From contig CALLML010000031.1 in the NCBI GenBank assembly GCA_938005705.1, forward strand, positions 1 through 37,594: DNA of 37,594 bases, in the 5' to 3' direction. Of this stretch, positions 20,874-37,050 are shown in pieces. How positions within the stretch are numbered: the first letter of the stretch is position 1; each line of letters starts with the position of its first letter. The position numbers were made by a program, and so were the translations under genes. The notes under the pieces are model-generated. The model worked only from the letters and a program-made list of their open reading frames with translations. It was not told where the DNA came from and ran no database searches. This DNA is from an uncultured bacterium (GTDB taxonomy: Bacteria > Verrucomicrobiota > Kiritimatiellia > PWTM01).

Positions 20874-22094
20874 TCACGCCCTCGCCTCCCGAGGTATTTC
20901 GATGTCCGTACGGGGCGCGTTTTTCGCCACATCCCAATACGGACAAATGCGCCGCAATGCCGCGACAATGCGTGGAAACACTTCGATGACGTAATCAATT
21001 TCCTCGTCCGTCGTATAGCGGCTCAGACTGAAACGGATCGATCCGTGCCGTGCCGTGAATGGGACCTTCATCGCCGTCAGCACATGGGAGGGCTCGAGCG
21101 AACCCGATGTGCAGGCCGATCCGCTCGATGCGCAAATGCCATGCGCATCAAGCTGGTAGAGCATGGCCTCGCCCTCGACAAAGTGCACCGCGAGATTCAG
21201 CGTGTTCGGCAGCCGCGGCGCCCCGCCACCGTTGATCTCCATCATCGGAATACGCGCCGCCAGTTCCCGCTGCAGCCGGTCCCGCCGCGCGCGCACCGCC
21301 GTCTCGTCGGCCATGTGCCGCTGCGCGAGCTGGGCCGCCGCACCGAACGCCATAATATGCGCCGTGTTTTCAGTGCCCGCCCGCTGCCCCTGCTCCTGAT
21401 GGCCGCCTATCAGAAATGGCCGTACGGGCGCCCCCTGCCGAATATACAGCGCACCGACGCCTTTCGGCGCATGCAGTTTGTGTCCCGAAAATGACAGCAG
21501 GTCCACCTGGTGAAATTCGCCCGCCAGATTCACGGGAATCTTCCCGACCGACTGCGTCGCATCCGTATGAAAGAGGATATCAGGGTCCGTTTCCTTGGCG
21601 ATGCGGGACAACCCTTCGATCGGAAAAATCACGCCCGTCTCATTGTTCGCGTGCATGAGGGTAACCAGCAAAGTCCGGCCAGGCCGCAGCGCCCGCACAT
21701 AAGCGTTCATATCCAGCCGGCCCTCACGGTCCACCGGCACCTCCGTCACCTCATAGCCCTCGCGCACCAGCTCGCGGCAGACCTCGCGAACCGATGGGTG
21801 CTCGACCGGCGAAGTGACGATGTGGCGACGTTCCGGCCGCGCACGCGCCGCGCCGAAAATCGCCCAGTTATTGCTTTCGGTGGCGCAACCGGTGAAGAAT
21901 AATCGGGACGGGTTCGCCCCGATGAGCGCCGCCACATCCTTGCGCGCTTCGGCAATGGCCCGAGCCACGCGCGCCGCAGGCGCATACATCGAACTGGGGT
22001 TGAAGTACAGGTCCTCCAGAAACGGCCGCATCGCCGCTGCCGCCTCCGGCGCCACCGACGTTGTCGCATTATTGTCCAGGTAAACGATATTCAC
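20874..22094 (-). CDS. Cysteine desulfurase (NifS/IscS-like)
   Basis: VNIVYLDNNATTSVAPEA, HVEHPS-like TSPVEHPSVREV, SFSGHKLHAPKGVGALYIR, GICASSGSACTSGSLEPSHVLTAM. The natural start looks like GTG at 22094; the listed ATG at 22223 would read through the palindrome array. Confidence 0.93.
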   Translation of the reverse strand: MNIVYLDNNATTSVAPEAAAAMRPFLEDLYFNPSSMYAPAARVARAIAEARKDVAALIGANPSRLFFTGCATESNNWAIFGAARARPERRHIVTSPVEHPSVREVCRELVREGYEVTEVPVDREGRLDMNAYVRALRPGRTLLVTLMHANNETGVIFPIEGLSRIAKETDPDILFHTDATQSVGKIPVNLAGEFHQVDLLSFSGHKLHAPKGVGALYIRQGAPVRPFLIGGHQEQGQRAGTENTAHIMAFGAAAQLAQRHMADETAVRARRDRLQRELAARIPMMEINGGGAPRLPNTLNLAVHFVEGEAMLYQLDAHGICASSGSACTSGSLEPSHVLTAMKVPFTARHGSIRFSLSRYTTDEEIDYVIEVFPRIVAALRRICPYWDVAKNAPRTDIEIPREARA

Positions 22095-22153
22095 ATTATC
22101 CCAATATAATCCAGTGCACGGCGATTGAAAAATCTCTTCTTTTCCCCGCGCCC

Positions 22154-22168
22154 TTCCAAGGCTTGGAA
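22154..22168. repeat. 15-nt dyad repeat copy 1 (TTCCAAGGCTTGGAA)
   Basis: Read directly. 7-nt arms TTCCAAG/CTTGGAA around a central G. Confidence 0.97.
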
Positions 22169-22185
22169 GAAGTCCCCCCTGGACT

Positions 22186-22200
22186 TTCCAAGGCTTGGAA
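22186..22200. repeat. 15-nt dyad repeat copy 2 (TTCCAAGGCTTGGAA)
   Basis: Identical to copy 1, start-to-start distance 32 nt. Spacer 22169-22185 = GAAGTCCCCCCTGGACT. Confidence 0.97.
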
Positions 22201-22217
22201 CATTTCGATGCCGGATC

Positions 22218-22232
22218 TTCCAAGCCTTGGAA
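22218..22232. repeat. 15-nt dyad repeat copy 3 (TTCCAAGCCTTGGAA, opposite orientation)
   Basis: Exact reverse complement of copy 1, start-to-start 32 nt from copy 2. Spacer 22201-22217 = CATTTCGATGCCGGATC. Confidence 0.97.
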
Positions 22233-22244
22233 AAACGTGTTTAC

Positions 22245-22703
22245 TCACAGGCTGATGAGCGTGAAGACCATGATCAGCAATGCTACGGTCTCGACGACGC
22301 CAAGCGTCATTAGGTAGTTGCTGAAGCCCTGGCCGGTCTCCGCCAGCGCATCGGCACCGGCCGCGCCGGCCTTGCCCTGGTACCAGGCCGAAACGCCGAT
22401 GCCCAGCCCGCCGACCAATCCCGCGCCGAGCATGAGGCCAACGCGCGCCACCTCGCCGGCAGCGAGTTTGCCGAGCATACTGTTCATCAGGATGAAACCG
22501 TAGATGGTCTGGGACATCGGCGCACCGATGAAGGTGACCAGAATGAAGGGCGCTGCTTTGCTCTGAGCAAAGCATTTCTTCCAGGAACCGATCGCCGCCA
22601 TGCCGGCCGTTCCCGTGCCGAGGGCCGAGCCGATGGCGGAGAACCCCAGCGCCATCGCCGCCGCCATTTGTCCGATTGCTGTCCATATCGCCGTTGCTTC
22701 CAT
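22245..22703 (-). CDS. V/A-type ATP synthase subunit K (proteolipid)
   Basis: MEATAIWTAIGQMAAAMALGFSAIGSALGTGTAGMAAIG...MSQTIYGFILM...; four-helix double-hairpin proteolipid of 152 aa. Confidence 0.93.
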   Translation of the reverse strand: MEATAIWTAIGQMAAAMALGFSAIGSALGTGTAGMAAIGSWKKCFAQSKAAPFILVTFIGAPMSQTIYGFILMNSMLGKLAAGEVARVGLMLGAGLVGGLGIGVSAWYQGKAGAAGADALAETGQGFSNYLMTLGVVETVALLIMVFTLISL

Positions 22704-29929: not shown

Positions 29930-30004
29930 GACCCCATCGTCCAGCGGTCAGGACACCAGGTTTTCATCCTGGAAACACGGGTTCGATTCCCGTTGGGGTC
30001 GCCA
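29930..30004 (+). tRNA. tRNA-Glu (anticodon TTC), CCA encoded
   Basis: GACCCCATCGTCCAGCGGTCAGGACACCAGGTTTTCATCCTGGAAACACGGGTTCGATTCCCGTTGGGGTCGCCA; full cloverleaf. Confidence 0.96.
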
Positions 30005-30024: not shown

Positions 30025-30045
30025 GTTTTCCAAGGCTTGGAAAAC
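30025..30045. repeat. Fourth copy of the 15-nt dyad, inside a 21-nt palindrome (GTTTTCCAAGGCTTGGAAAAC)
   Basis: Core TTCCAAGGCTTGGAA at 30028-30042, identical to copies 1 and 2. Arms extend to 10 bp. Confidence 0.97.
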
Positions 30046-35894: not shown

Positions 35895-36486
35895 AAGCAG
35901 ACCCCTTTGGCCCATACTGTGACAACAGTCGCGAAGCCATGGTTACGAAGCCCCTATGCGTGCGAAAAAACCGATGGCGCAGCGGGGCGTGCGAACGAGG
36001 ATCCGCCGACCCATCGGCTGGACACCTGGGGCTGCCACGTCGGCCTCGGCAATGATCGGATCGCTTCGCGGCATAGAGGCTGATGGGCTTCTCTTTTCTC
36101 ACGCTTCACGCCCCTGCCAGTCGAGGTGATGAAAGAGATGGCGAGGGGATCCGCCACTCGCACCGCGCGTGTTATTTTGCCAGCGAACCCATCAATAGAT
36201 GGGCTATTGGGTTGAGGTCTCTTATCGGTGCCATCGGCAAGGCGTTGGATGCGCGCTCACTAGAGGAGGTAAAAGGCTTCGATTTTACGTCACGTCTTTC
36301 TTTACTTTTGTCCCTTGACCATCGTTTATGAGAGTACGGCCTCGGTGGCTAACACCTTTTGGCGCTCCTCACCGACCGCTCCAATTCCAAATTTCTATTT
36401 ACACCCCCTGCCTTCGGTTAAAAGGCGGCAAAGCGGGGGCGCTTAAGAAAATTGAACTCAAGTTTTATTTTATGTATTTTAAAAAG

Positions 36487-37050
36487 ATGAAAAGATCTGG
36501 GTTGCTAAACCACGGTAGCCTTCTCTTAACGGTGATTCTTCTAACGGGGTGTGGCGGGTGTGCCGGGTTGACCCGAGGGAGGATGATAACGCCCCGCGGC
36601 CGGATGGCGGAGATATCTGCTGATCATTCCGATGTCCGAGCCGTGCGGGCGATTCTCGATGCGAACGGGCTACTGCGAAAAACAGTCGAAGGCGTGGCCG
36701 TGTTTGAGAACGGACGCATCGTTGAATTGTACTTGCAGGAAAGTGGCATCCGTGAGCTGACTGCGGATATCGGGCAGCTAAAACATCTTCGGCGCCTTCA
36801 CCTTTATGGCGATCGGTCGCTCGGGCTGCCTCTCTTGGAGAGCATTGCGCCCGAAATCGGACGATGTTCGGAGCTGGAAGAACTCCTGCTCAACAGCAAT
36901 GAGCTGACCACGTTACCGGAAACCCTCATGGAGTTGCGCAAACTCAGACGTCTGTCCATCGCCGATAATCGCCTCTTTCAACTGTCGCCGGAGTTACAGG
37001 TCTGGATCGAACGGCTGGAACCTCGAGGCCTGGCCGATCAACGCCCTTGA
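36487..37050 (+). CDS. Leucine-rich-repeat lipoprotein-like protein
   Basis: Start at MKRSGLLNHG; lipobox LLTGC; LRR segments (LKHLRRLHLYGDRSLGLPLLESI, CSELEELLLNSNELTTLPETLMELRKLRRLSIADNRLFQLSPEL). Confidence 0.75.
   Translation: MKRSGLLNHGSLLLTVILLTGCGGCAGLTRGRMITPRGRMAEISADHSDVRAVRAILDANGLLRKTVEGVAVFENGRIVELYLQESGIRELTADIGQLKHLRRLHLYGDRSLGLPLLESIAPEIGRCSELEELLLNSNELTTLPETLMELRKLRRLSIADNRLFQLSPELQVWIERLEPRGLADQRP

Follow-up and report, generated by a model that had tools for sequence, protein, structure and literature searches.

An array of phased palindromes behind a V-type ATPase gene

What is a short array of near-identical palindromes, spaced at one exact period, doing in the gap between two genes of an uncultured member of the Kiritimatiellia? 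We analyzed the window (the whole stretch of DNA, 37,594 nucleotides long) that contains this array. A rescan reproduced exactly what the first-pass annotation had described: the palindrome TTCCAAGGCTTGGAA at positions 22154 to 22168 and again at 22186 to 22200, and TTCCAAGCCTTGGAA at 22218 to 22232, each starting 32 bp after the one before. Two spacers of 17 nucleotides (nt) that are unrelated to each other, GAAGTCCCCCCTGGACT (22169 to 22185) and CATTTCGATGCCGGATC (22201 to 22217), separate the palindromes, which are built with a 7-bp arm on either side of a G/C dyad base (7-1-7). The annotation had overlooked a fourth exact copy at 30028 to 30042, a single palindrome of the same family with a TTT/AAA flank extension that lies 23 bp behind the tRNA-Glu (ttc) gene (29930 to 30004, plus strand), between it and nusA. 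A pattern scan of the window gave five matches at three or fewer mismatches, four of them exact, against 0.86 expected from shuffles.

The array occupies a gap of 150 bp between two minus-strand genes, the V-type ATPase K-subunit (ATP-synt_C) gene atpK (22245 to 22703) and a class-V aminotransferase (NifS-like) gene (20874 to 22094). It begins 12 bp behind the atpK stop codon, and the aminotransferase start lies 59 bp beyond it. We called no intrinsic terminator in this gap. Between the array and the aminotransferase gene there is a weak sigma-70-like promoter match on the minus strand (22103 to 22131; 9/12, with 0.3 expected). The position of this promoter-like match beyond the array and the lack of a called terminator would be in keeping with a boundary that divides the V-ATPase operon from the unit that follows. 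An Rfam search of the window returned two tRNAs and nothing else, and a gene for a small leucine-rich-repeat protein lies near the window end (36328 to 37050).

Copies in the source genome and across the class

The source assembly (G000; 2.76 Mb in 149 contigs) contains 141 exact copies of TTCCAAGSCTTGGAA and 185 copies of TTCCAAnnnTTGGAA / TTCCAANNNTTGGAA, while the reversed-pattern control gave none, so the motif is far above chance in the full genome. Adding up all spacings between 17 and 47 bp gives 91 adjacent pairs, and among the 50 pairs listed, 49 are spaced at 32 bp and one at 31 bp, as judged from match lengths. Across 430 kb of this genome, arrays consist of one to five units, and the spacers differ from locus to locus.

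Of the 241 genomes that we scanned from this class, 79 have arrays of TCCAAnnnTTGGA. When the inner arm bases were left free (TCCANNSNNTGGA), arrays appeared in 105 of the 241, with a maximum of 1,662 pairs in G090, and with the TTCCNNNSNNNGGAA pattern family f19 became positive as well (143 in G026, 88 in G058, and 63 in G075). The same TTCCNNNSNNNGGAA pattern gave zero in about 198 Verrucomicrobiota genomes outside the Kiritimatiellia, save for five with one or two matches. Families f2, f9, f26, f32, and f38 within the class are essentially array negative. When we looked for phased palindromes of any sequence in about 60 to 80 kb each of G009, G016, G050, G080, and G106, no such arrays came up. 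Copy number varies hugely among related genomes. For example, G117 of family f27 has a single pair and several sister species in its genus have about 90 to 100, making this a natural case of loss or motif switch that could help to find the binding protein. G063 would be another loss within its genus. The arrays behind atpK are not conserved in most family relatives.

High copy number, recurrence of the 32-bp spacing, and the presence of the motif in relatives are the opposite of what the first-pass annotation had named as grounds for dismissing the array. The window array belongs to a family of 15-bp palindrome arrays that is spread over whole genomes, restricted to this class, and phased to the helix, and whose arms shift between lineages. 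We found no description of this palindrome array system in the open literature that we searched, where no article contained the motif and none had anything pertinent to say about palindromic arrays in this class.

Half-site switching with constant geometry

Several features are constant across lineages, namely, the TCC...GGA bases, the 7-1-7 layout, the G/C dyad base, and the phase. The dyad base is G/C in 94 to 100% of sites and A/T in 0 to 6%. The arms differ by lineage (TTCCAA, TTCCAY, or TTCCGA), even inside one genus, with the geometry kept. Family f27 has TTCCAC/TTCCAT arms, and family f19 has TTCCGA arms. The genome G031 has no TTCCAA arrays at all, whereas its genus-mates G042 and G061 have them; its own arrays are TTCCA[TC]TCAATGGAA at a 31-bp period, one with seven units, and the relaxed pattern found 98 pairs. 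Arrays in G002 and G006 were detected only by a pattern with an unconstrained outer T, with 45 and 28 pairs versus 0 and 0. In G001, the atpK gene is followed by sites of the ATCCAA type at a spacing of 32 bp.

Helical phasing and DNA-level symmetry

The first-pass annotation had read the exact period as a sign of selection on phasing, and the class-wide data support this. The main period over the class is 31 or 32 bp, and the rarer spacings outside 30 to 33 bp (22, 62, 73, and others; n = 55) fall at multiples of about 10.4 to 10.5 bp, being nonuniform modulo that length (Rayleigh P ~ 3 × 10−9; phasing and mismatch counts pool related sites, and P values are indicative only). Phasing at 10.4 to 10.5 bp is the signature of sites held on one face of the helix. 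The suggestion in the same annotation of a cooperative or nucleoid-type binding array gains support from this class-wide phase together with spacers that differ between loci, and a phased DNA array is well supported.

An alternative is that the palindromes work as RNA, forming hairpins at mRNA 3′ ends that act as bidirectional terminators or stabilizers. The strong folding potential of the palindromes, their bias to 3′ ends and convergent gaps, and the phage arrays behind capsid genes described below are consistent with this, as are the terminator-like flanks in families f15 and f18 (AAAA-palindrome-TTTT). However, the flanks in the source genome are TTTT-palindrome-AAAA, which is not terminator-like, and the window array lies in a gap where no terminator was called. 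When imperfect pairs were read on the strand that the flanking genes use, there were 72 A-C mismatches and 42 G-U mismatches, the reverse of what selection on an RNA stem would be expected to leave. Arrays had no consistent polarity, and the spacing follows the DNA helical repeat. With a negative wobble-strand test and no consistent polarity, we rejected an RNA hairpin and regard an RNA element as quite improbable.

Unit-wise change of the arrays and the case for mobility

We compared spacers between relatives, as the first-pass annotation had recommended. G069 and G087, two genomes with 95% identity, have arrays at an orthologous site whose lengths differ by exactly one unit of 31 bp, and the remaining spacers are conserved. 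This difference amounts to a tandem gain or loss. Neighboring spacers are similar in some arrays, which would fit tandem duplication of units, and spacers at different loci are mostly unrelated. The exact period within one array could stem partly from tandem duplication rather than from selection.

A locus of the CRISPR or integron type, in which the 17-nt spacers are acquired cargo, had been offered as one reading of the array. Regular repeats with variable spacers and a length that changes by whole units are what such a locus would have, but there are hundreds of separate loci of one to seven units each, with no recurrent neighbor gene family such as cas or integrase. The spacers have no sign of acquired cargo: neighboring ones can be similar, they carry position-specific A/T edges, and the orthologous array changed by one tandem unit. 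We give this reading next to no credence.

The other mobile reading, of REP/REPIN-like selfish palindromes copied by a trans-acting transposase and tolerated behind genes and away from promoters with no host function, is less improbable. The first-pass annotation had raised a REP/BIME-like element, and with regard to distribution the likeness stood: the palindromes are dispersed and intergenic, they are biased to 3′ ends, doublets dominate, and copy number is hugely variable between related genomes. With regard to the transposase that defines REPINs, it did not. In protein family searches of 62 class genomes, Y1_Tnp (RAYT) had no matches in the array-rich genomes G000, G002, G006, G007, G008, and G022, and Y1_Tnp genes are not flanked by the palindromes, with four sites in 91 kb around 30 loci. 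Arrays with mostly unrelated spacers, helical phasing, an odd 7-1-7 symmetry, and a fixed G/C dyad also set this family apart from REP, REPIN, and BIME elements, and the conserved spacer between the paired palindromes of REPINs does not occur here. We rejected a RAYT/REPIN system on the missing transposase, the unflanked transposase genes, and the mostly unrelated spacers, and we consider selfish palindromes of this kind unlikely.

Some observations bear on copying without belonging to the main pattern. The spacers of doublets in G090 (L273 to L282) have a weak asymmetric consensus, ATTTGCGCnnCCGnAAT, limited to this genome and a likely close relative, and one 17-nt spacer of G090 is identical but inverted at L274:3498 and L274:14460, together hinting at a minor role for copying. 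G037 has 58 Y1_Tnp (PF01797) matches, far above any other of the 62 genomes. G063 carries a longer dispersed repeat around CCCTCTCCCACnnnGTGGGAGAGGG (L242:184-200, L245:200-216, and L245:13475-13491); two of its copies have common long flanks, and it has the look of a MITE-type element unrelated to the arrays.

Placement at gene ends and on viral contigs

Using genes predicted with a home-made gene caller, we found a site density of 0.3 to 2.8 per kb in intergenic DNA and 0 to 0.29 per kb in coding DNA. Among gaps of 80 to 150 bp, a site was present in 8 of 17 convergent, 16 of 92 tandem, and 0 of 30 divergent gaps. Arrays in tandem gaps lie at a median of 17 to 36 bp behind the stop codon and 73 to 89 bp before the next start, and some arrays stand directly before start codons. 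In G090, the richest genome, 7 of 8 convergent, 7 of 8 divergent, and 12 of 32 tandem gaps are occupied, mostly by exact doublets. The pooled other genomes, in which many loci had been selected for their arrays, gave about equal occupancy (29 of 102 convergent, 34 of 156 divergent, and 103 of 490 tandem). The boundary bias is thus strong in one genome and modest elsewhere, and it is not general. Replacement of terminators by the arrays was rejected, as array-bearing gaps had no clear deficit of intrinsic terminators.

The genes beside the arrays are unrelated and include those for a polyamine-type decarboxylase, a phosphoribosyltransferase, an ECF sigma factor, a transporter, and a sulfatase, among others. 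In a comparison of all flanking genes against all, no family recurred next to arrays in more than three genomes. Between orthologues, the agreement in array position is modest.

A few viral contigs also carry arrays. In L356, an array follows the major head protein gene at a distance of 5 bp; in L367, one follows the gene for a terminase small subunit at 1 bp; and in L359, one is behind a small gene that adjoins a major head protein gene. Two further viral matches at a period of 33 (L357 and L358) fall within repeats in coding sequence and were discounted as chance matches. Two other viral contigs have seven to eight palindromes at spacings of 31, 22, 32, and 42 (L354:3034-3330 and L355:2786-2977), with TTCCAA left arms and often degenerate right arms. 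These arrays are in stretches of 2 to 3 kb where the home-made gene caller called no genes, and in L355 a terminase large subunit gene lies 584 bp beyond the array.

Known systems and candidate binding proteins

The boxes of Fur-family proteins have a 7-1-7 layout. The palindromes here have the same 15-bp symmetry, and some array lineages (e.g., G090 and G069) have the AATnATT core of a Fur box. We rejected Fur as the binder, since at least 11 array-rich genomes among the 62 searched (G002, G003, G006, G007, G013, G031, G041, G042, G096, G104, and G158) had no Fur-family match. Other dispersed sites that are read by a chromosome-organizing protein are matS, bound by MatP, and the Noc-binding sites, both of which organize the nucleoid. 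On their general description, these resemble the present family in being genome-wide palindromes and differ in being single sites rather than phased arrays.

NrdR boxes lie in nrd promoters and have a consensus different from that of the arrays. They are tandem palindromes 31 to 32 bp apart (PMC2892513), a spacing that the arrays share. NrdR is encoded in 61 of the 62 class genomes, whether or not they have arrays, and the 12 NrdR sequences that we read look canonical. With a different site sequence, unrelated neighbor genes, and a ubiquitous protein, NrdR was rejected as the binder and serves as a precedent for geometry only.

The closest architectural match is to the Lrp/AsnC family, whose targets, such as those of the archaeal Ss-LrpB and FL11, are palindromes clustered two or three helical turns apart center to center on one face of the DNA (PMC2995911). 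The 22-bp and 31- to 32-bp spacings of the arrays agree with this clustering, and all 42 array-positive genomes have an Lrp/AsnC homologue, as do 15 of the 20 negatives. In G000 the homologue lies at C29:43440-43664. The arrays might be operators of a classical global regulator, e.g., the single Lrp/AsnC homologue, which would wrap the DNA and in this way control many promoters, and the arrays found right before start codons would fit. However, arrays are nearer stops than starts and occupy convergent gaps, the flanking genes form no regulon, and the sites here are strict, number up to more than 1,600 pairs per genome, and lie close to the ends of genes. In about a dozen sequences that we examined, the recognition helix of Lrp is not constant across genomes with TTCCAA arms, and the DNA flanking lrp contained no palindrome in most genomes read. 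A global regulator is the most credible of the alternatives, and even so we doubt it. Because the recognition helix differs among TTCCAA-sharing genomes, Lrp would be the best architectural precedent and a candidate rather than the identified binder.

A model for phased arrays at gene ends

Based on these results, we favor, at slightly better than even confidence, the reading that the window array is a member of a Kiritimatiellia-wide family of protein-binding arrays, composed of putative dimer operators that form nucleoprotein boundaries at gene ends. Each 15-bp palindrome would be the site for a single dimer of a DNA-binding protein with sequence specificity. Neighboring dimers would occupy one side of the helix at intervals of three turns (31 to 32 bp), sometimes two (22 bp) or another whole number of turns, and could touch one another and so stack the DNA or wrap it. 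The arrays grow and shrink by whole units, and their spacers drift while sites and phase are kept. Placed for the most part directly after stop codons, clear of the region ahead of starts, and marking most transcription unit boundaries in G090, they would place a nucleoprotein boundary at gene ends that insulates neighboring transcription units, possibly as a roadblock or a topological barrier. In the window, such a boundary would stand between the aminotransferase gene and the end of the V-ATPase operon that precedes it.

Boundary formation or insulation is the most likely function because of the placement of the arrays, the pattern in G090, and the phage copies, although taken by itself we hold it only tentatively, as distinctly less than an even prospect. 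A more ambitious version is possible but somewhat doubtful: a class-wide partitioning of genomes in which one dimeric protein forms helix-phased plugs at transcription unit boundaries and its specificity has shifted repeatedly together with hundreds of sites. Neighboring genes would thereby be insulated, the plugs would replace or add to terminators, and phages would use the same signal.

The site is short, strict, and countable, so that it can serve as direct bait for the binding protein, and closely related genomes whose half-sites differ, such as G031 and G042, provide a ready test of coevolution. Should these arrays prove to be boundary or chromatin elements, a large part of a bacterial class would have an unrecognized sequence-encoded system for separating genes or organizing the chromosome, and its genomes would hold a record of a protein and hundreds of its sites changing specificity together.
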